From Alphaproteobacteria bacterium (GTDB taxonomy: Bacteria; Pseudomonadota; Alphaproteobacteria; Micropepsales; Micropepsaceae): DNA of 37,063 bases. Location of the stretch: assembly GCA_028292825.1 (NCBI GenBank), contig JAQGLO010000176.1, positions 1 to 37,063 on the forward strand, read 5' to 3'. The notes beneath the pieces were generated by a model. The model had not been told where the DNA came from. It did no database searches and saw only the letters and a list, made by a program, of their open reading frames with translations. A program made the translations under genes and the position numbers. This document shows positions 2,478-28,178 of this stretch, one piece after another. Numbering within the stretch: position 1 is the first letter of the stretch; each line of letters begins with the position of its first letter.

Positions 2478-3662
2478 CTAAAGCGCCGGCTCGCCCGTTG
2501 CGTCCACCAGCAACCGCACGAATTCCTTCATCTGGGCGCTGTCGATCCAGCGCACCACCGCGACGATGTCGTGCTGATAGTCCACGAAGATGATGTTGGC
2601 GCCGTCGCCGATGAAGGCGACGCTGTCGGCGCGGGCGGCCGGATACAGCTTGCGGTCGGTGTTGAGATACCAGTTGCAGAAACCATAGCCGGGATTGGGG
2701 CCGGTGGGCGTGGTCGCCATCGTCACCCATTTGTCCGACAGGATTGTCGCCCCATCCCACTTGCCGCGATTAAGGCCCAGCAATCCCAGCCGCGCCTGGT
2801 CGCGGGCCGAGATGAACATGCCGCCGCCCCAATGGCCGCCGCCGGTCACCACTTTCAACTTCTTGCCGTCCACCTCGGTGAAGCTGTTGTCATAGCCTTC
2901 CCAGTGCCAGGTATCCGAGAGACCGATGGGATCGCCGATATACTGTTTCATCACATCGGGAAGCGCGCGCTTCCACAGCTGGGTCAGGGCCAGCGCCAGC
3001 GCATTCACCCGCACGTCATTGTATTTCCATGCCTTGCCCACCGGCGGCGGCCCCTTGATCAGTTCGCTGGCGGCATTGCCGGGGTCGGGGCGGTCGGCCC
3101 ACCACGGCTTGCCCCACAGGGTGCCGATCCAGCCCGACTGCTGGCGCAGCATGTCGTTCCAGGTGATGGGCTGGTTGTGCGGCAGCAGGAAGTCCGGCGT
3201 GGGCTGCACATAATCGATCACGCGGTCGTTGATGTTCCGGATCATCCCCTTGTCGAAGGCGATGCCCGCCACCGACGAGACGAAAGTCTTGGTGACCGAG
3301 AAGGTCATGTCCACGTCGCGGGTCGCGCCCCATTCCGCCACGATATAGCCGTGGCGGATGATGATGCCGTTGGCGGGGGCATGGGGTTTGAGCGGCCCTA
3401 TCGGCGTGTTGAAGGCTTCCTTGGCATATTTCAGCGGCACCGAAATGCGCAGGTCGCGGATATCGGCGACCCTGGCCAGCTCGGGCGGATATTTCAGTTC
3501 GGCGGAAATGGCGAAAGCGATGGCGGCCTTCAGCTTGGCGGCATCCAGCTTTTCCTGCGCCGGGGTGTGGGTGCTCCAGGCATCGCCCTTGGGCGGGAAG
3601 TAGTCGCCGGCCGCGGCAGGCAGGCTGAGGGCGACGAGGCCCGCGATCAGGATGGCGCGCAT
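2478..3662 (-). CDS. Exported S12-family serine hydrolase (beta-lactamase / MlrB-like fold)
   Basis: This 394-residue protein starts MRAILIAGLVALSLPAAAG, a Sec signal peptide. The start at 3662 is set by GGGGAAAC a few bases upstream; an in-frame ATG at 3683 lies before that ribosome site. The active-site motifs of class C beta-lactamases, DD-peptidases and esterases are present: S122-V-T-K125 (SxxK), a YND (YxN-type) motif in WKYNDVRVN, and a third-motif region GGHWGGGMF in place of KTG. The product should be a periplasmic serine hydrolase acting on an ester, amide or peptide bond. The S12 family includes D-aminopeptidases, 6-aminohexanoate-dimer hydrolase and, from memory, MlrB, the linear-microcystin peptidase. 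Two M81 (MlrC-family) peptidases lie downstream, so a peptide substrate is plausible. The exact substrate cannot be read from sequence. Confidence 0.88.
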   Translation of the reverse strand: MRAILIAGLVALSLPAAAGDYFPPKGDAWSTHTPAQEKLDAAKLKAAIAFAISAELKYPPELARVADIRDLRISVPLKYAKEAFNTPIGPLKPHAPANGIIIRHGYIVAEWGATRDVDMTFSVTKTFVSSVAGIAFDKGMIRNINDRVIDYVQPTPDFLLPHNQPITWNDMLRQQSGWIGTLWGKPWWADRPDPGNAASELIKGPPPVGKAWKYNDVRVNALALALTQLWKRALPDVMKQYIGDPIGLSDTWHWEGYDNSFTEVDGKKLKVVTGGGHWGGGMFISARDQARLGLLGLNRGKWDGATILSDKWVTMATTPTGPNPGYGFCNWYLNTDRKLYPAARADSVAFIGDGANIIFVDYQHDIVAVVRWIDSAQMKEFVRLLVDATGEPAL

Positions 3663-3920
3663 GATGTTTCCCCGGTTTTCCAAAAAGCTTCGTCAATTTG
3701 CGGACCTTATCAACACCGCTTTGGGCAGTGCTAGGATCGTCGCCGCAGTGATCCGCGAGGCGTCCGCAATGGTGTTGGATAAAGGGGGAGGGGTACGATT
3801 TTTGTGCCGAATCCGACCGCGCTTTGGGCGGATTCACCCCTTCGCGGCTGTTGGATAGATGCGAAGGAATACAAGCCTGCCGCTTTGGGCTAGAACCGGA
3901 AAAAAAGAACCAGGGGTCTT

Positions 3921-5213
3921 ATGTCTTTATCCTTTGATCGCTCGGCCGCACTGATCGCGGCGAACGCCAGGTCCGTCGCCGGTGGGGTCAACAGCAATTT
4001 CCGCATCGGCATGGCCGGCGGGCCGCTGGTCTTTGCACGCGGCGACGGGCCGTATCTGATCGACGTCGATGGCAACCGGCTGATCGATTATTACTGCGGC
4101 ATGGGCGCCATGGTACTGGGGCATACCCCGCATCCGGTGCAGCAGGCGGTGAAGGACCAGGTGGAGAAGGGCATTCTCTATGCCGGCCAGTCCGAAATCG
4201 AATTCGAAGCCGCGAAGATCCTGTGCGAGCGCATTCCGAGCGCCGAACGCATCCGGTTTGGCTCCTCGGGCTCGGAAGTGGCGCAGGCCGCCTTCCGCCT
4301 GGCGCGCGCCGCCACCGGCAAGCGCATCATCCTGAAGTTCGAAGGCCATTATCACGGCTGGTTCGACAATATCCTGTGGTCCACCGCGCCGGGCGAGAAT
4401 GCCGCCGGGCCTGAGGATGCACCCGTGAAGGTCGCGGGCACACTTGGCCAGGACCCGATCGATGCCGCCGGTCTGGACGTGATCGGCTGGAACGACCTGG
4501 CCAGGCTGGAAGCGCGGCTGGCCAGGGGCGACATCGCCGGCGTCATCATGGAGCCCGCCATGTGCAACCAGGGCGCCATCGCGCCTGCGGCCGGCTACCT
4601 GGAGGGCGCGCAGGCCGCCTGCCGCAAACATGGCGCCATCCTGATCTTCGATGAAGTCATCACCGGCTTTCGGCTGGGCCGCGAAGGCGCGCAGAAGCGC
4701 TTCGGGGTGACGCCCGACCTGTCCATCTTCGCCAAGGCCATCGCCAACGGCTTTCCGGTGGCGGCCATTGTCGGCCGCGCCGACCTGCTTGATCTGTTTG
4801 TCACCGGCGGTGTGCTGCATGGCGGCACCTTCAACGCCCAGCCCGTCACCATGGCCGCCATGGTGGCGACACAGAAGGCGCTGACGCCGGAATTGTATGA
4901 AGCCTGGTCGAAGCGCGGCTTGCGGTTGCGCGACGGGGTTCGCGAGATCCTGAAAGATGCCGGCATCAAGGCGCAGGTAACCGGCTTTGAACTGATGTTC
5001 CATGTCGGCTTCGGGCTGGAGGCGCCGGCGCGCAACTACCGCGACCTGCTCAAGACCGACAAGGCGGGCTATGTGAAATTCGCCCATGCGCTGCTGATGC
5101 GCGGCGTGCGGGTACTGGAGCGGGGCGCCTGGTTTGTTTCCTCGGCGCATGACGAGGCGGTGATCGACGCTACGCTGGAAGCCGTGCGCGGTGCGGCGAA
5201 GGATGTGGCTTAG
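3921..5213 (+). CDS. Class III PLP aminotransferase, glutamate-1-semialdehyde mutase-like
   Basis: This 430-residue protein has the fold-type I class III aminotransferase layout: an N-terminal GGPLVFARGDGPYLIDVDGN strand, GSSGSE for PLP phosphate binding, HYHGW, FDEVITGFR with D244 for the PLP ring nitrogen, and Schiff-base lysine K272 in IFAKAIANG. The D-to-K spacing of 28 equals that of glutamate-1-semialdehyde aminomutase. AGGGG-TCTT precedes the ATG. True HemL proteins usually have GKIIGGG around the lysine; here it is AKAIANG. The neighbours are peptidases and a peptide importer, not haem genes. A transaminase of the GSAM-like group, which includes beta-phenylalanine aminotransferases, fits better than HemL. 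Its stop codon overlaps the stop of the convergent membrane gene (TTAG at 5210-5213). Substrate assignment is inference. Confidence 0.9.
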   Translation: MSLSFDRSAALIAANARSVAGGVNSNFRIGMAGGPLVFARGDGPYLIDVDGNRLIDYYCGMGAMVLGHTPHPVQQAVKDQVEKGILYAGQSEIEFEAAKILCERIPSAERIRFGSSGSEVAQAAFRLARAATGKRIILKFEGHYHGWFDNILWSTAPGENAAGPEDAPVKVAGTLGQDPIDAAGLDVIGWNDLARLEARLARGDIAGVIMEPAMCNQGAIAPAAGYLEGAQAACRKHGAILIFDEVITGFRLGREGAQKRFGVTPDLSIFAKAIANGFPVAAIVGRADLLDLFVTGGVLHGGTFNAQPVTMAAMVATQKALTPELYEAWSKRGLRLRDGVREILKDAGIKAQVTGFELMFHVGFGLEAPARNYRDLLKTDKAGYVKFAHALLMRGVRVLERGAWFVSSAHDEAVIDATLEAVRGAAKDVA

Positions 5214-5977
5214 GCTTTCGCAGGCTGGTTCTTGAACAGCAGCCAGGTCAGCGCATGGGCGGTGGAAGATGCCAGCAATGCCAGGGCAAATGCCGCCCAC
5301 AGGCTGGTCTGGCCCAGCAACGTATAGGCCGCGAAACAGAAGGCGCCGACCGAGGCCAGTCCCATCGACATGCCGGCCACCGCTTCCATCACGGCATGCC
5401 GGCCATATTGAATGTGATTGGAGATGGCGATGATCGAGCCCATCACCGGAAAGGTGGCGAAGATGCCCGACCAGTGCGTGCCCATCGCCGCGGCGAACCG
5501 GGTGATGACGATGGTCAACACCGCGCCCGCAATCATGCGCGCCGGCAAGCCCCACCAGACATGCTCGCGTTCCTCGTCCGATGCTTCACCGCGCGGATAG
5601 GCGGTGAGCGCGATGATGAAGGCGAACAGCGGCACGATCTCAACCCAGCGCGGCGCGTCTTCCAGCCGGACCGCGATGACGGCGACGATGGTCCAGACCG
5701 CAAAGCCGATGATCGTGCACCACAACCAGTTCAGGCGGCGGGCGCAGAAGGCATAGGTCATGGTGAAACCCACCCACGGCACCAGCCCGAACCAGGCGCC
5801 AAGCGCCGCCGCGCTGCCAAACGCGGCGCCGTGATCCAGGCTGTTGAACAGCAGCAGCGGCATCGCTACCACCGGAAAGCCCGACAGCCAGCCGGCCAGG
5901 CGCGGGCCGTGCAGGCGCTCGATGATGCCCAGCGCCAGCAGCGCCAGCGGCACGATGGTGAGTTTCAGGATCAGCAC
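5210..5977 (-). CDS. Polytopic membrane protein with internal duplication
   Basis: The chosen start is GTG at 5977, preceded by AGGGGAAC and giving VLILKLTIVPLALLALG as the first membrane segment. Longer in-frame extensions read through Arg-rich non-membrane sequence and overlap the promoter region of the divergent gene. The product is 255 residues with about 8-10 hydrophobic segments and one charged loop (YPRGEASDEEREHV). Two halves look alike: LSGFPVVAMPLLLF...GAAFGSAAALG and FATFPVMGSIIAI...RHAVMEAVAG, suggesting an inverted or tandem duplication as in small transporters. I looked for the glutamate and histidine motifs of CAAX/MlrA proteases and did not find a convincing set. The function is unknown; a small transporter is the likeliest reading. 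It sits between the aminotransferase and the M81 operon but on the opposite strand. Confidence 0.72.
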   Translation of the reverse strand: MLILKLTIVPLALLALGIIERLHGPRLAGWLSGFPVVAMPLLLFNSLDHGAAFGSAAALGAWFGLVPWVGFTMTYAFCARRLNWLWCTIIGFAVWTIVAVIAVRLEDAPRWVEIVPLFAFIIALTAYPRGEASDEEREHVWWGLPARMIAGAVLTIVITRFAAAMGTHWSGIFATFPVMGSIIAISNHIQYGRHAVMEAVAGMSMGLASVGAFCFAAYTLLGQTSLWAAFALALLASSTAHALTWLLFKNQPAKA

Positions 5978-6107
5978 GGCGTTCCCCTGATTCCTATGTA
6001 GGCTGGAAACCACACCAGCGACAATGCTGCGCCGCAGGTGTCGCGGGCGCTTGCGGGCGCGGGGAAAAACCGGGAGAGTTTGTACCGGGCACCAAGCGGC
6101 GTGGCGT

Positions 6108-7595
6108 ATGACCAGGGTATTCATCGCGGGCATTTTTCACGAAACCCATTCCTTCCTGGGCACCACCACCGGGCTCGAAGGTTTTGCCATTCACCGCGGC
6201 GCCCAGATTCCCGCGCGGCGCGGCGATGCCTCGCAGGTCGATGGCTTCCTGTCGGTGGCGGAGCGCGAGGGCTGGGAGGTGGTGCCGGGCGTGGTCTATA
6301 CCGGCGGCGCTGACGCCATGGTCGAGCATGCCGTGTTCGAGCAGTTCTGGGACGAAGTGAAACCGGCGCTGGAAAAGGCACTGGCAGGCGGCCTGGATGC
6401 CATTCATTTGTCGCTGCACGGCGCCATGGTGACGAGCGAATGCGATGACCCTGAAGGCGAGTTTATGGCGCGCATCCGCGCCATGCCCGGCGCCGCCGAT
6501 CTGCCGATGTATTGCGTCGGCGACCTGCACGGCACCCTGACGCCGAACATGGGTGCGCTGAGCGATTGCATGATCTTCTACAAGGAGTGCCCGCACACCG
6601 ATGCCTTTGACAGTGCGGTGCTGTCCACCGAACTGTTGGCGCGCTGCCTGAAGACCGGCGTGCGGCCCAAGCACCTGGTGCTGGTCACGCCCATCGTGTG
6701 GCCGCCCACCGGCACCGGCACCAAGGACGGCCCGATGCGGGCGCTGGAAGATGCGGCGCGGCGGATTGAGCGCGACGTGCCGGGCGTGCTGGCGGTGAAT
6801 GTGGTGGGCGGCTACGCCTTTTCCGATGTGCCCCATGCCGGTGTCGCCTTCAGCGTCATCACCGAAGGCAGCGTTACAGACGCGCAGGAAGCCTTACGCG
6901 AACTGGCCGGCATCGCCTGGGAGATGCGCCAGGGCGGCATCCCGCCGCAACACGATCTGGACGCCGTGGTGCGCGACTTCAAGCCGGGCGGCAAGGGGCC
7001 GGTGCTGCTGGTCGAACCGGCCGACAATATCGGCGGCGGCGCGCCGGGCGACGGTACTGATGTGATGCGGGCGCTGTTGAAATACGATGTGCAGGGCGCG
7101 GGCGTGGCGCTGGCCGATCCGGAGAGCGTCGCCGCGCTTCAGCGCATCACCATCGGGCAGACAATGACGCTGCCCATCGGCGGCAAGGGCAGCCCGCTCG
7201 ATCCCGGGCCTGTGACGCTGGACGTCGAGCTGATTTCGCGCAGTGACGGCGTGTTCGAACTGGAAGATCATCATTCCCATCTGGTGGGGTCGCTGGGCAA
7301 GATCATCAACATGGGCCCGTCTGCGGTGGTGAAGCATCGCGGCCTGACGATTTTGCTCACCAGCAAAAAGCTGCCGCCTTTCGACCTGGGCCAGTGGCGC
7401 AGCCAGGGCATCAATCCCGAAGACCTCACCATGGTCGGCATCAAGGCGGCGGTGGGCCACCGTGTGGCGTGGGAGCCGATCGCTTCGGCCAGTTTCACGG
7501 TTTCCACCAGCGGGCCCTGCACCTCCGACATCACGCGGCTGCCTTACAAAAATTTGCGGCGGCCGGTATTCCCGCTCGACGCGCTGGAGGCTTGA
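6108..7595 (+). CDS. M81 family metallopeptidase (MlrC-like), copy A
   Basis: This 495-residue protein has the two-part M81 structure: a DUF1485-type N-terminal domain and an MlrC C-terminal domain. Visible motifs are IFHETHSF (residues 9-16), LHGAM, D139-L-H141-G and YKECPH163TD. The D-x-H then H spacing (2 and 22 residues) equals the zinc ligands I recall for microcystinase C (D167, H169, H191). The start at 6108 gives MTRVFIAGIFHET, aligned with the second copy MRIAIAEFKQET, so longer starts are rejected. It is likely a cytoplasmic zinc amidohydrolase or peptidase cleaving unusual amide links. It is the first gene of a six-gene operon; its TGA overlaps the ATG of the binding-protein gene (TGATG at 7593-7597). 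The natural substrate is unknown. Confidence 0.93.
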   Translation: MTRVFIAGIFHETHSFLGTTTGLEGFAIHRGAQIPARRGDASQVDGFLSVAEREGWEVVPGVVYTGGADAMVEHAVFEQFWDEVKPALEKALAGGLDAIHLSLHGAMVTSECDDPEGEFMARIRAMPGAADLPMYCVGDLHGTLTPNMGALSDCMIFYKECPHTDAFDSAVLSTELLARCLKTGVRPKHLVLVTPIVWPPTGTGTKDGPMRALEDAARRIERDVPGVLAVNVVGGYAFSDVPHAGVAFSVITEGSVTDAQEALRELAGIAWEMRQGGIPPQHDLDAVVRDFKPGGKGPVLLVEPADNIGGGAPGDGTDVMRALLKYDVQGAGVALADPESVAALQRITIGQTMTLPIGGKGSPLDPGPVTLDVELISRSDGVFELEDHHSHLVGSLGKIINMGPSAVVKHRGLTILLTSKKLPPFDLGQWRSQGINPEDLTMVGIKAAVGHRVAWEPIASASFTVSTSGPCTSDITRLPYKNLRRPVFPLDALEA

Positions 7596-9163
7596 TGCTG
7601 GACCGGCGCAGCGTTCTTGGCGCCGCGCTGGTATTTCCCGCGCAGGCTTACGCCGCGCCGAACCAGCGCCGGATCATCAACGCCATGATGACGGACGAAC
7701 CGGCGACTCTGTGCTATCCGCTGTTCAATACCCGCCTGACGCAGGAAATCTGCGGCAACATCAACGAGTCGCTGCTGCTGTTCGACTGGCAGTTCAACCC
7801 GCACCCCAACCTGGCGCGGGCCTTTGAGATGTCGCCGGACGGCCTGACCTACACCTTCTATCTGCGGCCGGATGTGCAGTGGCATGACGGCGTGAAATTC
7901 ACCGCACGCGACGTGGCATTTTCCTGTGGCACCATGCTGCCCCAAGTCAATCCGCGCAGCCGCAACGCCTTCAGCCACATCGCCAGCATAACGGCGAAGG
8001 ACGCTTATACCGTGGTGTTCCGGTTGAAAGAGCCGTTCAACGCCTTCCTGATGTCGCTGATGGCATCCAGCGCGCCGATGATGCCGGCGCATATCTATGA
8101 AGGCACCGATTTCCGCGCCAATCCCTTCAATGTGAAGCCGATCGGCACCGGGCCGTTCAAGTTCGCGCAGTGGAAGCGCGGCCAGTTCATCCACCTGGCG
8201 CGCAACACGCATTACTGGCGCCCCGGCCAGCCGGGCATGGACGGCATCTATTACCGCGTCTGCGCCACACCCGAGCAGCGCATGGTGGCGATGGAGACCG
8301 GCGCGGTGGATTTGGCCATGGCCGACGATATCGACACGGTCGTGAATTCGCGCATGGCGGCCAACCCGAACATCGTGGCGCGCGCCGATGCCTATAACGG
8401 CACCGGCGAGATCACGGTGATGGAACTGAACCATCGCCGCTGGCCGTTTGGCGACCGCCGCTTCCGCGCCGCCTTCCTGCATGCGATTGACCGCGAATTC
8501 CTGGTGAAGGGGATAAACTTCGGGTTGGGCAAGGTGGCGCACAGCCCGATCCCGTCGACCGCGCCCTATCATGACGACAAGGTGCTGACGAAGTACGAAT
8601 ACAATCCTGCCAAGGCCCGCGCCCTGCTGGACGAGATGGGGCTGAAGCCCAGGCTGGGCGGCATACGCCACCGCTTCGGCATCATGCTGGCGCCGGATGG
8701 CGGCGGTTCCTGGACCCGCGGCGCGCAATATATAAAGCAGGCTCTGGCCGAAGTGGGACTGGCGGCGGAGCTGGAAGCCACCGATTGGCCGACGCAAAGC
8801 CGCCGCAGCGGCAACTGGGAATTCGACTGCGACTGCAACAGCTATGGCGAATATGGCGATCCCGCCATCGGCACGTCGCGCTTTTTCCTGACGTCCAATA
8901 TCCGCAAGGGCGTGCCGCTGACAAACCTGCAGGGCTACAGCAACCCCGAAGTGGACCGGCTGTTCGGCCAGGCGGCGGTCGCCATCACCCGCGAGGAGGC
9001 GCAGGCCCATTACAGCCGGCTGCAGCAGATTCTCACCCATGACGTCGCCATGCTGTGGCTGTATGAGCGCAAACCCATGCTGTTCCACAACAGGCGGCTG
9101 AAGAATATGGTGACGGGACCGAACGGCCCCGCTGACGGCTTCGGCGCGGCAACTTTGGCATGA
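7595..9163 (+). CDS. Peptide ABC transporter substrate-binding protein (SBP_bac_5)
   Basis: This 522-residue protein is translationally coupled to the peptidase gene before it (TGATG). The N-terminus MLDRRSVLGAALVFPAQAYA has a twin-arginine and a hydrophobic stretch, so Tat export to the periplasm is likely. The body matches the family 5 dipeptide/oligopeptide/nickel binding proteins: LTYTFYLRPDVQWHDGVKFT, a PIGTGPFKF motif and the C-terminal segment with YSRLQQILTHDVAMLWLYE. The length is typical for the family. It should capture a peptide-like ligand and deliver it to the permeases encoded next. The operon context with two M81 peptidases suggests the ligand is what those enzymes cut. The ORF extends upstream in frame, but those codons overlap the peptidase gene and lack a signal. 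Confidence 0.94.
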   Translation: MLDRRSVLGAALVFPAQAYAAPNQRRIINAMMTDEPATLCYPLFNTRLTQEICGNINESLLLFDWQFNPHPNLARAFEMSPDGLTYTFYLRPDVQWHDGVKFTARDVAFSCGTMLPQVNPRSRNAFSHIASITAKDAYTVVFRLKEPFNAFLMSLMASSAPMMPAHIYEGTDFRANPFNVKPIGTGPFKFAQWKRGQFIHLARNTHYWRPGQPGMDGIYYRVCATPEQRMVAMETGAVDLAMADDIDTVVNSRMAANPNIVARADAYNGTGEITVMELNHRRWPFGDRRFRAAFLHAIDREFLVKGINFGLGKVAHSPIPSTAPYHDDKVLTKYEYNPAKARALLDEMGLKPRLGGIRHRFGIMLAPDGGGSWTRGAQYIKQALAEVGLAAELEATDWPTQSRRSGNWEFDCDCNSYGEYGDPAIGTSRFFLTSNIRKGVPLTNLQGYSNPEVDRLFGQAAVAITREEAQAHYSRLQQILTHDVAMLWLYERKPMLFHNRRLKNMVTGPNGPADGFGAATLA

Positions 9164-10137
9164 ATCGGCTGCAGTTCATCGCCATGCGCCTGGTCAAGAC
9201 GGCGCTGGTCACCGTCGCGGTGGTGGTATTGAGCTTCTTCCTGATCCGGCTGGCGCCGGGCGATGCCGCGACCGTGATGGCAGGGCAGTCGGGCTATGCC
9301 GACGAAGCCTTCATGAAAAACCTGCGCGCCGAATATGGCCTGGATCAACCTTTGCCGGTGCAGCTGGCAAAATATCTGGGCGCGGTGGCGCATGGCGATC
9401 TGGGTACGTCTTATGTGCGGCGACAGCCGGTACTGGCGGTCATTCTCGAGCGATTGCCCAACACGCTGTTGCTGGATGCCTTTGCGCTGGTGGTGGCGAT
9501 CGCCGGCGGCGTCTGGCTGGGCGGGATAGCGGCGCGTAAGCCCGGGTCATGGGGCGATGCGGCGGTGACGGTGCTGGCCATGCTGTTCTATGCCGTGCCG
9601 CAATTCTGGCTGGGCATGATGGCAGTGCTGGTGTTCGCGGTATGGCTGGCCTGGCTGCCGCCCTTCGGCATCGAGACCATGGGCGCTGATTTCACCGGCA
9701 TGGCGCGTCTGGGCGACATTGCGCAGCACATGATCCTGCCTGGCATGACCCTGGCGCTGTATTTCCTGGCGAGCTATGCGCGGCTGACCCGCACCGCCAT
9801 GCTGGAGGTGGCGGATGCCGATTTCGTCAAGACTGCGCGCGCCAAGGGCATCAGCGAGCGGCAGGTGGCGCGGCGGCACATCCTGCGCAATGCGCTGATC
9901 CCGCTGGTCACCTATGCGGGCCTGCAGGCCTCGATCCTGGTCGGCGGCAGTGTGCTGGTGGAGAATGTCTTCAGCTGGCCGGGCATCGGCACCCTGGCCT
10001 ATGATGCGGTGACCGCGCGCGACAATCCGTTGCTGCTGGGCATCTTCATCATCACCGCCATCCTGGTCAGCCTGTTCAATTTGTTGACTGACATCGCCTA
10101 TTCCATCGCCGATCCGCGGGTGGAGCTGGGCCGATGA
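9160..10137 (+). CDS. Peptide ABC transporter permease, DppB type
   Basis: This 325-residue protein overlaps the binding-protein gene by four bases (ATGA). The features are those of DppB/OppB/GsiC permeases: a first membrane helix followed by VLSFFLIRLAPGDAA, then LRAEYGLDQPLPVQLAKYLG, about six membrane helices, and the EAA-like loop ARAKGISERQVARRHILRNALIP that contacts the ATPase. The C-terminus has SILVGGSVLVENVFSWPGIG, a strongly conserved segment of this family. It forms the inner-membrane channel together with the product of the next gene. Confidence 0.95.
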   Translation: MNRLQFIAMRLVKTALVTVAVVVLSFFLIRLAPGDAATVMAGQSGYADEAFMKNLRAEYGLDQPLPVQLAKYLGAVAHGDLGTSYVRRQPVLAVILERLPNTLLLDAFALVVAIAGGVWLGGIAARKPGSWGDAAVTVLAMLFYAVPQFWLGMMAVLVFAVWLAWLPPFGIETMGADFTGMARLGDIAQHMILPGMTLALYFLASYARLTRTAMLEVADADFVKTARAKGISERQVARRHILRNALIPLVTYAGLQASILVGGSVLVENVFSWPGIGTLAYDAVTARDNPLLLGIFIITAILVSLFNLLTDIAYSIADPRVELGR

Positions 10138-10958
10138 GATTCGCGCGCCGCTTCTTTTCCCGTCCCACCGCGCTGATCGGGTTCGCGCTGTTTGCGGCGA
10201 TTGCGCTGGTAGCGCTGCTGGCGCCGGTGATCTTTGCGCGCGGGCCGTTCAGTATTGTGGGCATGCCGCTACTACCGCCGGGCGCGCCGGGACTGCTGGC
10301 GGGCAGCGATGTGCTGGGGCGCGACATGGCGGTGGGGCTGGCCTATGGCGCGCGGATATCGCTGCTGGTGGGAATTGCCTCGACGCTCTTCGCGGTGGGT
10401 ATTGGCGTACTGCTGGGCGCTGTCGCCGGCTATTATGGTGGACTGGTTGACGACCTGCTGATGCGTGTGACGGAATTCTTCCAGATCATTCCCAGCTTCG
10501 TGCTGCTGATGGTGCTGGTGGCGTTCCTGCAGCCCAGCCTAGGCTCCACCGTGATCGGCATCGCGCTGGTGACCTGGCCGCAGGTGGCCCGTGTGGTGCG
10601 GGGTGAATTCCTGTCGTTGCGCAACCGCGAATTCGTTCAGGCGGCCCGCACCCTGGGCGAGAGCGACGCGCGCATCATCTTTACCCAGATACTGCCCAAC
10701 GCGCTGCCGCCCATCGTGGTGGTTAGCTCCATGATGGTGGGCAGCGCCATCCTGACGGAATCGGCGCTGAGCTTCCTGGGGCTTGGCGACCCCAATCTTT
10801 TAAGCTGGGGCAGCATGATCGGCGGCGCGCGTTCCGCCATGTGGGTGGCATGGTGGACGACGGTGTTGCCGGGCCTTTCCATCATGGTCACTGTGCTGGC
10901 GCTGAACTTCATCGGTGACGGATTGAACGATGCGCTGAATCCGCGGAGGCGTGGATGA
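10134..10958 (+). CDS. Peptide ABC transporter permease, DppC type
   Basis: This 274-residue protein overlaps the DppB-type gene by four bases (ATGA). It has an N-terminal membrane helix, then LLAGSDVLGRDMAVGLAYGARISLL, which is the standard DppC/OppC signature G-T/S-D-x-x-G-R-D. The EAA loop AARTLGESDARIIFTQILPN and the C-terminal SFLGLGDPNLLSWGSMI follow. It is somewhat shorter than many family members because the N-terminal cytoplasmic part is brief. It is the partner of the 9160-10137 permease in the importer. Confidence 0.95.
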   Translation: MRFARRFFSRPTALIGFALFAAIALVALLAPVIFARGPFSIVGMPLLPPGAPGLLAGSDVLGRDMAVGLAYGARISLLVGIASTLFAVGIGVLLGAVAGYYGGLVDDLLMRVTEFFQIIPSFVLLMVLVAFLQPSLGSTVIGIALVTWPQVARVVRGEFLSLRNREFVQAARTLGESDARIIFTQILPNALPPIVVVSSMMVGSAILTESALSFLGLGDPNLLSWGSMIGGARSAMWVAWWTTVLPGLSIMVTVLALNFIGDGLNDALNPRRRG

Positions 10959-12544
10959 GCCTCGTCTCAACTCGCGATCTCACCGTGACACTGCCGCCGG
11001 ACACCGACCGCGCCCATGCGGTGGATGGCGTGAGCCTTGAGATCGCAAAGAATGAAATCGTCTGCATCGTGGGTGAATCCGGTTCCGGAAAGTCGATCAC
11101 GGCGCATGCCGTCATGGGCCTGTTGCCGCGTGGCGTGCGCGCGACCGGCGGCGAGATTTTGTTCGACGGCGTCGATCTGCTGAAAGAGGCGCCCGACGCC
11201 ATGCGCAAGCGGCGCGGGCGCGACATCGCCATGATCTTCCAGGACCCGATGGCGGCGCTCAATCCGGTGGTTGCCATCGGCAAACAGGTGACCGAGCAGA
11301 TACGTGCCCATTGCGCAGTGACTGAACGGGTCGCACTGGCGCAGGCGGCCGATTTGCTGGGCCAGATGGGGCTGAAGGACGCCAGCGGCTTGTTGAAAGC
11401 CTATCCGCACCAGCTTTCCGGCGGCCAGCGCCAACGGGTGATGATCGCCATGGCGCTGTCTTTGTTGCCCCGCCTGCTGATCGCTGACGAACCGACCACG
11501 GCGCTGGACGTCACCACCCAGGCGCAGATCCTGAAGCTGATCAAGCGCATCCAGGCGGAGCGCGAAATGAGCGTGCTGTTCATCACCCATGATTTCGGCG
11601 TGGTGGCGGATATCGCCGACAGGGTTGCGGTGATGCGCCATGGCCGGGTACTGGAAAGCGGGGCTACGGCACAGGTGCTGCGCGAACCCGCCCATTCCTA
11701 TACCCGCGCGTTGATCGCCGCCGTGCCCAGTGGTGACAATCTGCTCGCGCCGTTGCCGGATGCCGCCCCTTTGATGGCGGTCACCGGCCTGACCAAGCGC
11801 TTCCGGCGCGGCGGGTTCTTCGCGCGCAACGCGGTGACGGCGGTGGACAATGTCTCGCTGACCCTGAAGCGCGGCGAGACCCTGGGGATCGTGGGCGAGT
11901 CCGGGTCAGGCAAGTCGACCCTGGCGCGCTGCGTGATCCGGCTGCTGGACCCGGAAGAGGGTGAAATTCTCTTCGATGGCGCCGATATCGCACATCTGTC
12001 CCCGCGCGGCCTCAAACCGTTGCGCCGCCGCATCCAGATGGTGTTCCAGGATCCTTTTTCCTCCCTCAATCCGCGCCAGACGGTAGCCGACATCATCACC
12101 GCCGGGCCGCGCGCCCATGGCGAAAGCGCAAAGGCGGCATTGGCGCGTGCCGCAGATATCCTGCGGCTGGTGGGCCTGAACCCTGAGACCATGCACCGAC
12201 TGCCGCATGAATTTTCCGGCGGGCAACGCCAGCGCATTGGACTGGCGCGTGCCCTTATGCTGAAACCCGATATCCTGATCGCCGACGAGCCGGTGTCGGC
12301 GCTGGATGTGACGGTACAGGCCCAGGTTCTGAAGCTGCTGGATGATGTGCGCCGCCAGATGAACCTGGCCATGCTGTTCATCACCCATGACATGCGGGTG
12401 GCGGCGCAGGTCTGTCACCGCGTTATGGTGATGCGCCACGGCCAGGTGGTGGAAGCCGGTCCTACCCGCGATGTCTTTGCCGCGCCGTCCAGCGACTATA
12501 CCCGCGCCCTGCTGGCCGCCATTCCCGGCCGTGGCACATTATAA
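10955..12544 (+). CDS. Fused double ATPase of peptide ABC transporter (DppD-DppF type)
   Basis: This 529-residue protein carries two complete ABC ATPase domains in one chain. The first has Walker A GESGSGKS (40-47), signature LSGGQRQRV and Walker [13 protein letters not shown]. The second has [24 protein letters not shown] and [12 protein letters not shown]. Each half ends with the oligopeptide-type C-terminal segment ([15 protein letters not shown] and [15 protein letters not shown]). It replaces the separate DppD and DppF subunits, as in YejF/GsiA-type systems, so the operon encodes a complete importer. It overlaps the upstream permease gene by ATGA; the next gene begins 12 bp downstream with its own AAGGAAA ribosome site. 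Confidence 0.95.
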
Positions 12545-12556
12545 AAAGGAAAGCGC

Positions 12557-14029
12557 ATGCGCATCGCCATTGCCGAATTCAAGCAGGAGACCAACAGCTT
12601 CGTGCCGTTCACCACCACGGTGAAGACGTTTGAAGACCAGTATCTCTATCGCGGCGATGACATCTTCACGGCCTTTGGCGTGGCGCGGCTGGAAGTGCCC
12701 GGTGCGCTGGATGCGCTGGAGGAAGCGGGCGCCCAGGCCGTGCCGCTGCTGGCCACCATGGCGATGGCGTCCGGCACGGTGGAGCGCGCCAGTTTCGATA
12801 TCCTGATGACCGAAATCCTGGAACGCCTGCGCGCCGCCTTGCCGGTGGATGGCGTCTATCTGGCGCTGCATGGCGCCATGATCATCGAGGATGAGCCAGA
12901 TGCCGAGGCCGAGATCGTGCGCCGTGTGCGCGCCGAACTTCCTGCCGGCACGCCCATCACCGTGTCCCTGGACCTGCACGGCCATATTACCAGCGCCATG
13001 CTGCAGCCTGACGTCGCCTATATCGGCTATCGCGAATTCCCGCATGTCGACATGTATGAGACCGGTCATCGCTGCGCCAAGCTGCTGGTGGACTGGGTCA
13101 AGGGCAGGGTGAAGCCGGTGATGGCGCTGTCCAAGCGCCACATGGTGTTCAGCCCGGATTCCGCCCGCACCACGGCGCCGCCATTGTCCGACATTGTCGC
13201 GGAAGGCCGCGCCATGGAGGAACGCGGCGAGGTGCTGCATGTCTCGCTGTTCCCGGTGCAGCCCTGGATCGATACGCCTGACCTGGGCTTTGCTGCGCTG
13301 GTGTGCGGCGAAGACGCGGCGAAGGCGCAGGCCGCTGCTGACAAGCTCGCCAAGATGGCCTGGGACCGCCGTCGGGAATTCGAGCCCGACGTCACGCCGC
13401 TGGAAGAGATCATCCGCATCGGGCTGTCAGAGCCCGGCCTCACCGTGGCCAGCGATTCCGGTGACACGCCATCGGGCGGCGCGGCGGCGGACTCGACTGC
13501 CGTGCTGGCGGCGCTGCTGCATGCAAGGGCCGACCAGTCCGACCGCATCTCGATATGCACCATCGTGGACGCCGAGGCAGCCACAGAAGCGGCAAGAGCA
13601 GGTGTCGGCAAGACCGTCACCTTGCAAATCGGCCACAAGCGTTCCGGCCTGGGCGATCCGCTGACTGTCACCGGCAAGGTAAGAACCATCAGCGATGGCA
13701 GCTATGTGCTGGAAGGCCAGGGCGCACACGGCATGGCAGGCGAGATGGGGCTGACGGTGGTGCTGGCGATCGGCAGCATCCGGGTGAATCTGCGCTCCAT
13801 CCCGCATTTCGAATGGGACCTGGGAATTCATCACAGCGTGGGGCTCAATCCCGCCGATGCCGCTTTGGTGTTTGTGCGCTCGCCGTCGCATTTCCGGGTG
13901 TCCTATGCGCCCATCGCCGCGCGCATTTTCCTGGCCGACACGCCGGGCCCCACCTGCGTGAACATGCGGCGCATCCCTTTCACCAAGGTGACGCGGCCTT
14001 TCTATCCGCTGGACCTGGCAAATGATTAG
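12557..14029 (+). CDS. M81 family metallopeptidase (MlrC-like), copy B
   Basis: This 490-residue protein is the second M81 peptidase of the operon, preceded by AAGGAAAGCGC. It carries EFKQETNSF (7-15), LHGAM, D139-L-H141-G and YREFPH163VD, so the three likely zinc ligands fall at the same residue numbers as in copy A. The rest is strongly diverged from copy A; this is not a recent duplication. The C-terminal domain contains DSGDTPSGGAAADST and the closing RIPFTKVTRPFYPLD, matching copy A's RLPYKNLRRPVFPLD. The expected role is cytoplasmic metal-dependent hydrolysis of an imported peptide or amide. The two copies may cut different bonds of one substrate; that is inference. Confidence 0.94.
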   Translation: MRIAIAEFKQETNSFVPFTTTVKTFEDQYLYRGDDIFTAFGVARLEVPGALDALEEAGAQAVPLLATMAMASGTVERASFDILMTEILERLRAALPVDGVYLALHGAMIIEDEPDAEAEIVRRVRAELPAGTPITVSLDLHGHITSAMLQPDVAYIGYREFPHVDMYETGHRCAKLLVDWVKGRVKPVMALSKRHMVFSPDSARTTAPPLSDIVAEGRAMEERGEVLHVSLFPVQPWIDTPDLGFAALVCGEDAAKAQAAADKLAKMAWDRRREFEPDVTPLEEIIRIGLSEPGLTVASDSGDTPSGGAAADSTAVLAALLHARADQSDRISICTIVDAEAATEAARAGVGKTVTLQIGHKRSGLGDPLTVTGKVRTISDGSYVLEGQGAHGMAGEMGLTVVLAIGSIRVNLRSIPHFEWDLGIHHSVGLNPADAALVFVRSPSHFRVSYAPIAARIFLADTPGPTCVNMRRIPFTKVTRPFYPLDLAND

Positions 14030-24005: not shown

Positions 24006-26147
24006 ATGAACCTGAAGACCGCGCTCTATATAAGTGTGCTGCCGCTGCTGGCCGGCCCTGCCCTGGCCGCCCCTGCCAATCCCTTTGCGACGCCCAGCAC
24101 CCTGCCGCTGCAGGCGCCCCGTTTCGACATCATCAAGGACGGCGATTACCAGCCCGGCTTTATGGAGGCAATGAAGCAGCAGATCGTCGAGGTGGAGGCG
24201 ATCGCCAACAACCCGGCCCCGCCGACTTTTCAGAACACCATCGTGGCACTGGAGGTGTCTGGCCGGATGCTGGACCGGGTCGGCAACGCCTTCTATGGCG
24301 TGGTGCAAGCCAATACCAATCCCGTGCTGGACAAGGTGCAATCGACAGTAGCGCCGCTGCTGGCGGCGCACCAAGATGCCATCGCCCTCAATCCCAAGCT
24401 GTTTGCCCGGGTCAAGGCTGTCTATGACCAGCGCGCTTCACTGAAGCTGGACGCAGAATCGCAGCAGCTTCTCAAGATCGACTATTTCCAGTTCATCCAT
24501 GCCGGCGCCAATCTGTCCGACAAGGACAAGACGCGGCTCAAGCAGATCAACAAGCAGGACGCCTCGCTGGAAACCGATTTCCAGCAGAAGCTGGTGGCCG
24601 GCGCCAAGGCCGGCGCGCTGGTGGTCGATGACAAGAGTGCGCTGGCGGGATTGAGCGACGCGGAAATCACCAACGCCGCGAATGCGGCCAAGGAACGCGG
24701 CCTCAAAGGCAAGTTCGCCATCCCGCTGCAGAACACCACCCAGCAGCCTCTGCTGACCACGCTGGCCAATCGCGACACCCGCGAAAAGCTGTTTCACAAT
24801 AGCTGGATCCGCACCGAGAAGGGCGGCAAGAACGACACCCGCGCCATTATCGCCCAGTTGGCGGTGATCCGCGCGGAAAAAGCCAAGCTGCTCGGCTATC
24901 CCAACTATTCCGCCTATGTGCTGTACGACCAGATGGCCCAGACGCCGGAGGCGGTGGAGAAGTTCATCGGCCAGCTGGTGCCCGCCACCCGCAGCAAGGC
25001 GGCCGAGGAAGCCAGGCTGATCCAGGCCGCCATAGACAGGGACGCGGCGGCGCAAAAGACGGCGCGCTTCGATCTTAAGCCCTGGGACTGGCAGCGTTAT
25101 GCCGAACAGGTGCGCAAGGAACGCTATGACATTGATGACAATGTCCTGAAGCCCTATTTAGAAATCCATACCGTGCTGGAAAAGGGCGTGATGTACGCCG
25201 CCACCCAGCTTTACGGTATCACCTTCACGCGCCGCACCGACATTCCGGTCTATCAGCCCGACGTGATGGTCTATGACGTCTATGACAAGGACGGTTCCGT
25301 CCTGGGCATGATGTATTTCGATTACTTCAAGCGTGACAACAAATCTGGCGGCGCCTGGATGAGCAATTTCGTCGGCCAGTCGCACCTGCTGAAAACCAAG
25401 CCGGTGATCTACAATGTCGCCAACTTCCAGAAGCCCGCGCCGGGCCAGCCGGCGCTGATCAGCTTCGACGACGCAACCACCATGTTCCATGAATTCGGCC
25501 ATGCTCTGCATGGCCTGTTCGCCAACAGCCAGTATCCCAGCCTGTCGGGCGCCAACACCGCGCGCGACTTTGTTGAATTCCCCTCGCAGTTCAACGAGCA
25601 CTGGGCGCTGTATCCCGATGTGCTCAAGCATTACGCGCTGAATTATAAAACCGGCGCGGTGATTCCCGATGCGCTGGTGGACAAGATCAAGAAATCCCAG
25701 ACCTGGGGTCAGGGCTATGCGCTGGGCGAATTGCTGGCGGCGTCGCAACTGGACATGCAGTGGCACACACTGGCCCCGGGTGCGCCAAAGCCGGATGTCG
25801 ACGCCTTTGAAACCCAGGCGCTCAAGAACACCGGCACCGACTTCCCCAACGTGCCGACGCGCTATCGTTCCAGCTATTTCCTGCATATCTGGGGCAATGG
25901 CTATGCGAGCGGCTATTACGCCTATCAGTGGACCGTGATGCTGGATGATGACGCCTATTCCTGGTTCACCCAGAACGGCGGTCTGAGCCGCGCCAACGGT
26001 CAGCGTTTTCGGGACATGATCCTGTCCAAGGGCCACACCATGGATTACGGCCCCATGTTCAAGGCCTTTTACGGCAAGGATCCGGATATCGGCCCGATGC
26101 TGGAGCATCGTGGTCTGACCGTACCAACGACGACCTCTCCCAAATAG
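24006..26147 (+). CDS. M3 family zinc oligopeptidase (peptidyl-dipeptidase Dcp-like)
   Basis: This 713-residue protein has a signal peptide MNLKTALYISVLPLLAGPAL before AAP, so it is periplasmic. The zinc motif HEFGH is at 495-499 (MFHEFGHALHGLF), and the later conserved block DFVEFPSQFNEHWAL provides the third ligand region. RYRSSYFLHIWGNGYASGYY near the C-terminus matches the Dcp/oligopeptidase A substrate-binding Tyr region. The length is typical for Dcp. It should release dipeptides from the C-terminus of short peptides. It is monocistronic; the EcfG-type promoter of the next operon follows its stop. Confidence 0.95.
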   Translation: MNLKTALYISVLPLLAGPALAAPANPFATPSTLPLQAPRFDIIKDGDYQPGFMEAMKQQIVEVEAIANNPAPPTFQNTIVALEVSGRMLDRVGNAFYGVVQANTNPVLDKVQSTVAPLLAAHQDAIALNPKLFARVKAVYDQRASLKLDAESQQLLKIDYFQFIHAGANLSDKDKTRLKQINKQDASLETDFQQKLVAGAKAGALVVDDKSALAGLSDAEITNAANAAKERGLKGKFAIPLQNTTQQPLLTTLANRDTREKLFHNSWIRTEKGGKNDTRAIIAQLAVIRAEKAKLLGYPNYSAYVLYDQMAQTPEAVEKFIGQLVPATRSKAAEEARLIQAAIDRDAAAQKTARFDLKPWDWQRYAEQVRKERYDIDDNVLKPYLEIHTVLEKGVMYAATQLYGITFTRRTDIPVYQPDVMVYDVYDKDGSVLGMMYFDYFKRDNKSGGAWMSNFVGQSHLLKTKPVIYNVANFQKPAPGQPALISFDDATTMFHEFGHALHGLFANSQYPSLSGANTARDFVEFPSQFNEHWALYPDVLKHYALNYKTGAVIPDALVDKIKKSQTWGQGYALGELLAASQLDMQWHTLAPGAPKPDVDAFETQALKNTGTDFPNVPTRYRSSYFLHIWGNGYASGYYAYQWTVMLDDDAYSWFTQNGGLSRANGQRFRDMILSKGHTMDYGPMFKAFYGKDPDIGPMLEHRGLTVPTTTSPK

Positions 26148-26173
26148 CGATCCTAAGTGCAGGAACTTTTTCC

Positions 26174-26198
26174 GGAACTTTCCAGGATATCGTGCGTT
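26174..26198 (+). promoter_or_regulatory. EcfG-type (general stress sigma) promoter of the TonB-YfiR-kinase operon
   Basis: GGAAC (26174-26178), 16 bases, CGTT (26195-26198) is an exact match to the alphaproteobacterial EcfG/SigT promoter consensus GGAAC-N16/17-CGTT. It lies 67 bp before GTG 26265, giving a leader of about 55-60 bases. An extra GGAACTTT at 26162 precedes it but has no matched -10 element. Confidence 0.7.
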
Positions 26199-26264
26199 TT
26201 TGCTCAAATTGGGTGCGCAAAGGTACCCATCGGTGTCAGGGGACGCCGGCGTGAGGGGGCAGGC

Positions 26265-28178
26265 GTGGCTTTGTGCAAAATCCTTGGCGGGTTGCTGGCG
26301 GGCGCGACCTTGGTTGCGTCCCCGGCCCATGCCCAGCAAATGGCGGCCAACGCCGATCTGCAAAGCCTCTCGATTGAACAACTGGCCAATGTGGAGATCA
26401 CGTCGGTTTCCAAGGCGCCGCAGGCCCTTTCCGCCGCCGCCGCCGCTGTTTATGTCATCAGCCATGACGATGTAATCCGGTCCGGCGCTACCAGCCTGCC
26501 GGAAGTCCTGCGGCTGGCGCCCAACCTGCAGGTCGCACAGATGGGCGCCAGCGGCTATGCCATCACGGCGCGTGGTTTCAACGGCAATGCCGCCGACAAG
26601 CTTTTGGTGCTGATCGACGGCCGCAGTGTCTACACCTCTCTCTATGGGGGTGTGATGTGGGACGAAAAAGACGTTCTGCCGGAAAATATCGAGCGTATCG
26701 AAGTGATCAGCGGACCCGCGGGGACCCTGTGGGGTGCCAATGCCGTGAACGGCGTCATCAACATCATTACCCGCAAAGCTGCCGATACGCCGGGCGGAAT
26801 ACTGACGCTGGGCGTGGGCAACCGCGAGGCGCGGGCGAGTCTGCAGTATAGCGGCGCGATAACAGACGATCTCAATTACCGCATCTATGGCGAAACCTTC
26901 GCCATTCCCCACGCCAACACTTCGGCGGGCGTGTCGGCCAATGACGGCTGGAACAAGAGTCAGGGTGGTTTTCGCCTGGACTATACCCCCGGCATCGACA
27001 CCCTGAGTCTCCAGGGCGATTATTACCAGGGCAATGAAGGCAGCGGCGGTGTCACTGGCACCAACATCTGGGGTGGCAACATCCAGGGCACATGGCTGCA
27101 TCAGTTGGGCGATGCGGGCACGTTGCAGCTGCTGGGCTATTATGACGGCAACCGCCGCTATGGCGGCGGCCAAGGCTATGGCTTCGACACCTATGATCTG
27201 GAAGTGCAGCACAGCATCCAGCTGTTCGACGCGCATTCCTTTGTCTGGGGTGCTGGCGGACGCGTCTATAGCGACAGTTTCAATTTCACCGGTGCGGTCC
27301 AGTTCCTGCCTGCCAGCCGCACCCAGGCGGTGGGCAATATCTTCGCGCAGGACAGCTGGACCCTTTCCGATACGCTCACTTTGGTATTGGGCGCCAAGCT
27401 GGAGGCCGACGCCTATACCGGGCTGAAGGTGCTTCCCAATGCGCGCCTGTCGTGGAAGGCATTCGACAATGCGATGTTCTGGGCCTCCTATGCCCATTCG
27501 GTTCGCGCCCCCACGCGATTCGACGTGGACCTTTATGATGTGCTGGCGCCGGGCATCGTGACCCTGACCGGGGACCGGAATTTCAAAGCCGAAACGGTTC
27601 GCGCCTTCGAGGTCGGCAGCCGGATTGAGCTCAGCAGCAACTTTTCCTTCTCGGTTTCCGGCTTCTACAACCAGTACAACAATCTGCGCAGCGTCGAAGT
27701 GGTGCAGGGCGTCACGCTGCCCCTTCTGTGGAGCTGGGGCAACCTGCTGGAAGCCAATACCTATGGCGCGGAAGTATGGGGCAACTATGCCGTCAATGAC
27801 TGGTGGCGGCTCAGCGCAAGCTTCAACATCCTGCACCAGGATCGCAAGTTCAAACCGACCTCCAGCCAGCTGGGCGGTCTGGGGCAACTGGGCGACGACC
27901 CCAATCATCAGGCGATGTTGCGGTCTTCCATGAATCTCGGCGACGGCGTCAATCTGGATGCGGATCTGCGCTGGATCGGGAAGCTCCCAGATCCCAAAGT
28001 GGCGGCTTATGCTGATCTCAACCTGCGGCTGGGCTGGCAGATGACCGACGCGATAGAACTTTCGCTTGCCGGCGCGAATCTGCTGCAGCCACAGCACCTG
28101 GAATATGAACTGGCTGGCGCCACTACTGGCACCTATGTCTATCGCAGCGTCTTTCTTCAGACCCGATTGCATTTCTGA
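26265..28178 (+). CDS. TonB-dependent outer-membrane receptor
   Basis: This protein is 637 residues from GTG 26265, chosen because GAGGGGG precedes it and it opens directly into the signal peptide VALCKILGGLLAGATLVASP. The plug domain (about 40-165) has LSIEQLANVEITSVSKAPQA, GFNGNAADKLLVLIDGRSVY and VISGPAGTLWGANAVNGVIN, a strong TonB-receptor pattern. A 20-22-strand barrel follows and ends with YRSVFLQTRLHF, the terminal aromatic typical of outer-membrane barrels. It imports a large or scarce nutrient with TonB energy; the ligand is unknown. It is the first gene of a four-gene unit and is coupled to yfiR by TGATG at 28176-28180. Confidence 0.93.
   Translation: MALCKILGGLLAGATLVASPAHAQQMAANADLQSLSIEQLANVEITSVSKAPQALSAAAAAVYVISHDDVIRSGATSLPEVLRLAPNLQVAQMGASGYAITARGFNGNAADKLLVLIDGRSVYTSLYGGVMWDEKDVLPENIERIEVISGPAGTLWGANAVNGVINIITRKAADTPGGILTLGVGNREARASLQYSGAITDDLNYRIYGETFAIPHANTSAGVSANDGWNKSQGGFRLDYTPGIDTLSLQGDYYQGNEGSGGVTGTNIWGGNIQGTWLHQLGDAGTLQLLGYYDGNRRYGGGQGYGFDTYDLEVQHSIQLFDAHSFVWGAGGRVYSDSFNFTGAVQFLPASRTQAVGNIFAQDSWTLSDTLTLVLGAKLEADAYTGLKVLPNARLSWKAFDNAMFWASYAHSVRAPTRFDVDLYDVLAPGIVTLTGDRNFKAETVRAFEVGSRIELSSNFSFSVSGFYNQYNNLRSVEVVQGVTLPLLWSWGNLLEANTYGAEVWGNYAVNDWWRLSASFNILHQDRKFKPTSSQLGGLGQLGDDPNHQAMLRSSMNLGDGVNLDADLRWIGKLPDPKVAAYADLNLRLGWQMTDAIELSLAGANLLQPQHLEYELAGATTGTYVYRSVFLQTRLHF

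Follow-up and report, generated by a model that had tools for sequence, protein, structure and literature searches.

What does a bacterium do with two relatives of microcystinase C (MlrC) that are encoded in one operon with a peptide importer, next to an aminotransferase gene? The question is raised by positions 2478-14029 of contig JAQGLO010000176.1 (GenBank assembly GCA_028292825.1; Micropepsaceae, Alphaproteobacteria), analyzed here over its whole length of 37,063 nucleotides (hereafter, the window). This contig belongs to an assembly that is 82% complete and comprises 219 contigs. With a probability of about 0.5, we propose that the locus is a module with a catabolic role, by which an unusual peptide or amide would be imported and dismantled inside the cell. 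The Opp/Dpp-type ATP-binding cassette (ABC) importer (7595-12544) would carry the substrate into the cytosol, and two M81-family hydrolases (hereafter, M81a and M81b), which have the catalytic site of MlrC but other pocket residues, would cut amide bonds in it. A class III pyridoxal phosphate (PLP) aminotransferase (hereafter, AT3) would then act on a non-standard amino acid (D-, beta- or omega-type) set free by this cleavage and hand its amino group to a keto acid, a step that would make carbon and nitrogen usable. We infer that the importer serves these enzymes, that M81a and M81b cleave peptide bonds, that the released residue is non-standard and that the steps follow in this order. The D- or beta-nature of the substrate is suggested by analogy, from partner enzymes in some relatives and from the chemistry of MlrC, and not by the window locus itself.

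Gene order of the locus

Pfam and NCBIfam scans bore out the genes, and their places, given in a preliminary description of the locus. Six plus-strand genes form the operon, in the order M81a, binding protein, DppB, DppC, DppDF, and M81b. M81a (6108-7595, ATG at 6108), an MlrC-family zinc hydrolase, matches PF07364 with 236 bits and PF07171 with 133 bits. It is followed by a family 5 substrate-binding protein with a signal-peptide-like start (about 7595-9163; SBP_bac_5, PF00496, 291 bits), a DppB/OppB-type permease (9160-10137; PF00528 and PF19300), a DppC/OppC-type permease (10134-10958; PF00528 and PF12911), a fused DppDF ATPase of YejF/GsiA-like layout (10955-12544; two ABC_tran stretches), and M81b, the second MlrC-family zinc hydrolase (12557-14029; PF07364 with 287 bits, PF07171 with 149 bits). 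The peptide importer was thus recovered in full by Pfam, with SBP_bac_5, two BPD_transp_1 permeases, and both the D and F ATPases detected. On NCBIfam, DppDF scored 576 bits for YejF and 564 bits for GsiA, both under the cut-off, and no equivalog (peptide, nickel, glutathione etc.) reached its cut-off for the binding protein, DppB or DppC among the matches listed. The operon had been called a six-gene overlapping one; this holds for four of the five junctions, where genes one to five overlap by 1-4 bases, but DppDF is separated from M81b by 12 bases, and AAAAGGAAA precedes the ATG of M81b.

AT3 (3921-5213; PF00202, 201 bits) lies upstream of the operon on the same strand. A gene on the minus strand that was overlooked earlier sits between AT3 and M81a and encodes a DUF3147-like membrane protein (5210-5977; GTG start; 23.4 bits against a cut-off of 23.6). 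AT3 is therefore a separate transcription unit. The DUF3147-like gene is kept with M81a in the loci of the genus (relatives at 48-74%).

AT3 is GSAM-like but is not HemL

The solved chains closest to AT3 are glutamate-1-semialdehyde aminomutases (GSAMs; best 264 bits), followed by D-phenylglycine aminotransferase (179 bits) and beta-Phe aminotransferase (154 bits), in agreement with its initial labeling as GSAM-like. AT3 shares the class III PLP fold with HemL but reached only 342 bits on the HemL model TIGR00713 (cut-off 527.3). In a tree of 39 rows, which omits truncated, split, fused, and duplicate copies (e.g., L034, L040/L062, L042, L056, L084, L104-L107, and L111), three HemL genes formed a separate starred clade, and AT3 fell inside a starred clade of 15 rows. 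A grouping with true HemL had been named beforehand as a way in which the preliminary description might fail; the phylogeny instead puts AT3 outside the HemL clade. The C-terminal YEA/FEA motif of the solved GSAMs contains a Glu that matters in GSAM, and this position aligns with a gap or Gly in AT3. No HemL above the cut-off was found in the 82%-complete source genome, which need not have one because ALA (5-aminolevulinate) synthase, the usual alphaproteobacterial route, is present (660 bits). Given the score, the separate clade, and the ALA synthase, we rejected the identification of AT3 as HemL. The aminotransferases of Natrialba and P. phymatum were likewise rejected as AT3 orthologues, as they belong to other class III groups.

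Some copies of AT3 have other surroundings or are broken. L084 belongs to the AT3 clade by identity (57%), is cut by a contig end and is without M81, and L103 holds an AT3 copy without M81 in the stretch examined. Genes with a start that looks ceramidase-like by eye are near AT3 in L033, L103, L104, and L107, partly together with an Lrp-like regulator gene; the single copy scanned had no Pfam match. AT3 is in two frames in G017 (L042) and has internal stops in G444:C54, and M81a is in two frames in G433 (L068). These breaks could reflect decay or assembly error.

M81a and M81b keep the zinc site of MlrC but not its pocket

The roles and numbering of the MlrC residues were taken from the available parts of PMC9982164, PMC12474180, and PMC4810221. 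The zinc-site residues E39, D167, H169, and H191, as well as H133, were kept in all 34 aligned rows, including M81a, M81b, and two solved proteins, whereas the pocket residues W59, F67, and F96 were kept in neither M81a nor M81b. The position of N41 is occupied by His in 15/15 M81a-type rows, and the alignment around E70 was too poor for a call. On the NCBIfam MlrC model NF041767 (cut-off 999 bits), M81a and M81b scored 108 and 140 bits, respectively. Of the "two MlrC-family peptidases" described earlier, the family assignment therefore stands, with M81 domains above the cut-off and the zinc residues in place, but these low scores and the different pocket residues led us to reject them as MlrC proper.

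Searches with a single protein or with the family gave 41-46 first-look M81 candidates in each of three genomes of family f56 (G213, G308, and G385), a number suggestive of a large M81 expansion. Paralogues of M81a (65-70%) in L041, L049, and L050 stand beside genes distantly similar (26-40%) to the pyrroloquinoline quinone (PQQ)-dehydrogenase-like protein of the window.

AT3 and M81 genes recur together

Among 69 genomes of the genus, the window's included, AT3 was detected in 18 and M81a in 19. All 18 AT3-bearing genomes have M81a, and G006 alone has M81a without AT3. The two genes are adjacent in 15 of the 18, the window counted; contig ends interrupt the locus in G441 and G448, and a rearrangement in G015 has left one AT3 copy without M81a and the other 4 kb from an M81a-like gene. 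This adjacency, together with a third-position GC of 0.79-0.86 in the nine chosen frames, indicates that the gene set is not a product of chance. The named AT3 homologues at 86-90% identity are labeled Rhizomicrobium sp. M81b is absent after DppDF in G006 and G444, and contigs end at this point in G008 and G433.

To look outside the genus we used a sample of 385 genomes of the class, five of which were seen listed under the genus (leaving about 380). AT3-clade genes (≥56% identity) were found in four non-genus genomes and M81a-type genes in six, with an overlap of four (p = 2e-8; p = 1e-6 when each family is represented by a single genome). At 17 non-genus AT3 loci (13 from the class sample and 4 from an additional search), an M81 gene was present in the stretch read at seven (L080, L081, L083, L085, L098, L100, and L101) and directly adjoined AT3 in L080, L081, and L083. 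The tie between AT3 and M81 thus recurs in other families. IclR was found at 8 of the 17 loci versus 0 of 35 control M81 loci. The controls came from the high-scoring end of the class-sample M81 list and were not random; all groups were judged by the same set of thresholds, and the flanks reached about 10 kb at most, with contig ends leaving less (under 1.2 kb in two cases). None of these 35 loci had AT3, RidA, the D-serine-dehydratase-like gene, or creatininase either. Among plasmids, aminotransferase matches were obtained in 40 records, and M81 was near two (H1 and H18) of the nine non-HemL matches with neighbors examined. From the M81 side, annotated neighborhoods were examined for eight of the plasmid matches, drawn from the best 60 of 481 records.

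Several observations weigh against a joint function of these genes. The 56% identity line was set after the hits were seen, and only four candidates per genome were scored in both the AT3 and the M81a searches of the class; at E 1e-90, AT3 relatives occur in 12 non-genus genomes, eight of them without an M81a-type match. At ten of the 17 non-genus AT3 loci, the stretch read was devoid of M81. When M81 copy numbers are set generously, that of one genome being assumed, the proximity to M81 at 4 of 13 loci has a p of 0.015 and the adjoining position at 3 of 13 a p of 0.0006. From the M81a side, AT3 lay in the stretch at only one of six non-genus class-sample loci (L083), which is why the module was given no more than the probability stated above, and RidA and the D-serine-dehydratase-like gene were at none of these six. 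The named M81a loci from outside the genus are mostly from one genus (Kaistia, 4 of 6), and the window cluster itself contains neither a D-amino-acid enzyme nor RidA. Synteny within the genus is weak evidence, because unrelated Nudix-PHO4-PhoU genes are kept as well on the other flank of the operon.

This last pattern would be expected if AT3 and the M81-Dpp operon were neighbors merely by descent of one chromosomal region and served separate pathways. AT3 indeed lies outside the operon, G006 has the operon without AT3, and M81-Dpp sets without AT3 occur in Sulfitobacter, Halorussus, and Haladaptatus and among the controls (a binding-protein or DppB match at 6 of 35). We nevertheless regard separate pathways as rather unlikely, given that the co-occurrence spans families and that AT3 and M81 form adjoining pairs in G266, G158 (L083), and Microvirga.

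Richer clusters and the type of substrate

The catabolic module may be seen in a richer form in relatives. Of the six named M81a loci outside the genus, all have IclR, five each have a D-serine-dehydratase-like gene, RidA, and Dpp-type genes, and one has AT3; PF14031 was detected in the one copy of the D-serine-dehydratase-like protein tested. The locus with AT3 is on a plasmid of Microvirga lotononidis (L126), where Dpp genes, a binding protein, IclR, the D-serine-dehydratase-like gene, and an MlrC-type M81 gene are divergent from M81a (53%), RidA (72%), AT3 (64%), and a further M81 gene. In L098 (G792), AT3 at 76% is accompanied by the D-serine-dehydratase-like gene (63%), three M81 genes, Dpp genes, and IclR. 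Pairing of M81 with a D-amino-acid enzyme is also documented in the accessible part of PMC9608346, where an M81 gene of Arthrobacter sp. Helios and its neighbor by locus tag, which encodes a D-serine ammonia-lyase, were both upregulated under polyethylene glycol (PEG).

Other relatives may point to a different kind of substrate. AT3 relatives at 42-48% in L071 (Pelagibacterium), L100 (G748), and L101 (G738) stand with M81a, RidA, a sugar-type importer instead of Dpp, and a creatininase-family protein. In the haloarchaeon Halobaculum magnesiiphilum, a plasmid region (L127, 402-14276) combines, as annotated, a class III aminotransferase, M81, RidA, IclR, creatininase, and a Dpp-type importer with mandelate-racemase-like and aldehyde dehydrogenase genes; its aminotransferase and M81 are only 38% and 30% like those of the window. 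The main rival explanation builds on such neighbors: the substrate would be a small amide (a lactam, a hydantoin- or creatinine-like ring, or an N-acyl amino compound), with the M81 proteins acting as amidohydrolases and AT3 taking the freed amine. In addition to the creatininase-family genes beside AT3 and M81 in these four loci, a hydantoinase A/B-type gene is found in L080, and D-aminoacylases or a hydantoinase/carbamoylase amidase are near other M81 genes. The window, however, has an Opp/Dpp importer and two M81 genes with no creatininase or hydantoinase beside them, and the characterized relative MlrC cuts a peptide bond, according to the part of PMC4810221 available. A small amide is thus a possible substrate, though less probable than the peptide-like one assumed for the module.

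The S12 hydrolase is a facultative neighbor

Divergent from AT3 is a gene on the minus strand for an S12 (beta-lactamase fold) serine hydrolase (2478-3662; PF00144, 63 bits). Its start was moved by eye to an internal ATG ahead of a signal-peptide-like stretch, and the translation contains SVTK and YND, consistent with the exported S12 hydrolase described previously; the protein is probably exported. Membership in the module is another matter. The S12 gene was found in 37 of the 69 genus genomes, i.e., in 17/18 with AT3 and 20/51 without it (Fisher p = 6e-5, confounded by kinship). In 14 of the 18, no more than 4 kb separates it from AT3; in the remaining four, contig ends bar judgement (G001), the S12 gene is elsewhere (G016 and G008), or it is lacking (G444). 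Eleven S12 loci examined from the 20 AT3-less genomes had neither AT3 nor M81 in the stretch. The S12 gene is therefore probably a bystander to the module, and its place as a core member was set aside as unproven. A one-strand order S12-M81-M81-S12 was seen in G021 (L048, G021:C24, 7377-13070; PF00144 with 150 and 185 bits), and the first of these M81 proteins scored 340 bits on the MlrC model. L048 is a Rhizomicrobium-type set with a content nearer to mlrB-mlrC than that of the window, and favors an association of S12 with M81 in general. Of the import-and-dismantle scheme in the preliminary description, we thus retain the importer, the MlrC-family hydrolases, and the aminotransferase as a catabolic unit, as the AT3-M81 tie recurs and some relatives add RidA and the D-serine-dehydratase-like enzyme, but not the S12 hydrolase, MlrC proper, or a specificity for beta-amino acids.

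Elsewhere in the window, a tRNA-Arg (acg) is encoded close to the contig start (23-99), and positions 24006-28178 encode a Dcp-type M3 peptidase and, after it, a TOL_0244-type TonB receptor, which scored 903 bits (cut-off 944) and 699 bits (cut-off 645), respectively.

A possible source of MlrC

In a tree of 34 M81 rows, a small sample centered on this locus that includes some of the M81 proteins detected, the MlrC structure 7YLQ grouped (100/98) with copies from Kaistia, G158, and Microvirga, with 7YLQ and 3IUU filling 38% and 34% of the columns, respectively. A direct full-length comparison of the Microvirga copy gave 376 bits to 7YLQ and 119 bits to 3IUU. The Kaistia, G158, and Microvirga copies reached 380-408 bits on the MlrC model, and those of L085, L048, and the second copy of L126 reached 340-384 bits; none of these MlrC-nearest proteins attained the cut-off of 999. 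The MlrC-nearest copies stand in L066 and L072 (Kaistia), L083 (G158), and L126 with M81a, IclR, and Dpp genes, some also with RidA and the D-serine-dehydratase-like gene. These sequence relationships provide a lead, namely that MlrC may have been recruited from clusters of this kind. More broadly, and only as a tentative proposal, the window locus may be a compact branch of a wider catabolic system for peptides of D- or beta-amino acids, from which microcystin breakdown would have taken MlrC. That system would comprise an M81a-type hydrolase, a GSAM-like aminotransferase, and IclR, joined in some branches by RidA and the D-serine-dehydratase-like enzyme. Its importers would be of the Opp/Dpp or sugar type, and it would have a haloarchaeal look-alike.

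In the literature found, as far as the available portions of those sources go, MlrC is the only M81 member with measured activity, though M81 genes are present in 137 of the 385 class-sample genomes. Literature searches returned no work on an M81-aminotransferase module as such among the matches listed, and one joining M81, MlrC, and ABC transporter found nothing. The recurring set of partners offers a testable substrate class for proteins often labeled microcystin degradation proteins, and hints at the origin of MlrC. The recurrence of the core enzyme pair in some distant bacteria makes a little-studied family testable. If the proposal is true, the module would illustrate how bacteria of fresh water and soil can draw on the refractory nitrogen of D- or beta-amino acids.

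Comparison with known systems

On the P. phymatum plasmid pBPHY02, which also bears nif genes, an importer, M81, and a class III aminotransferase are side by side, as in the window, and a binding protein follows (L139, 1-9424). In the available part of PMC8305402, this ABC-M81-aminotransferase set was downregulated in nifA mutant bacteroids. However, its aminotransferase falls into a different class III group (473 bits on PRK06917; long branch), and its M81 is of another type. For six clusters from Kaistia, Nitratireductor, and Microvirga lotononidis (L066, L067, L069, L070, L072, and L126), no name in print was found. They share with the window a Dpp importer and further M81 genes, an M81a orthologue (52-54% in the first five), and, in L126, AT3. 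The window set is shorter, whereas these clusters add RidA (not L070), IclR, the D-serine-dehydratase-like enzyme, and MlrC-type M81 copies.

With the mlr system, the window shares classes of enzymes more than members. M81a and M81b resemble MlrC (PDB 7YLQ) in their M81 domains and in the five residues that surround the zinc, and the S12 hydrolase shares the SxxK class with MlrB as given in the part of PMC4810221 at hand; with PF00144 and SxxK present, it is a candidate for the MlrB subgroup. These shared classes (M81, S12, and an importer), and the presence of the MlrC-nearest proteins in related clusters elsewhere, could be taken as signs of an mlr-like route for the breakdown of microcystin or a closely related cyanobacterial peptide. 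We consider this very improbable: M81a and M81b are far from MlrC and lack its W59, F67, and F96, the S12 gene shows no tie to the module, and the only Rce1-like protein found in the 82%-complete genome has 259 amino acids and is without the HAIHNE motif of MlrA (motif from the same portion of PMC4810221). The absence of MlrA noted at the outset is upheld to this extent, and, as far as tested, the locus was rightly set apart from the classical mlr cluster. The label "mlr-like" fits the chemistry loosely and does not denote membership. Compared with mlrABCD, the window has two M81 genes, an ABC importer in place of MlrD, and an aminotransferase.

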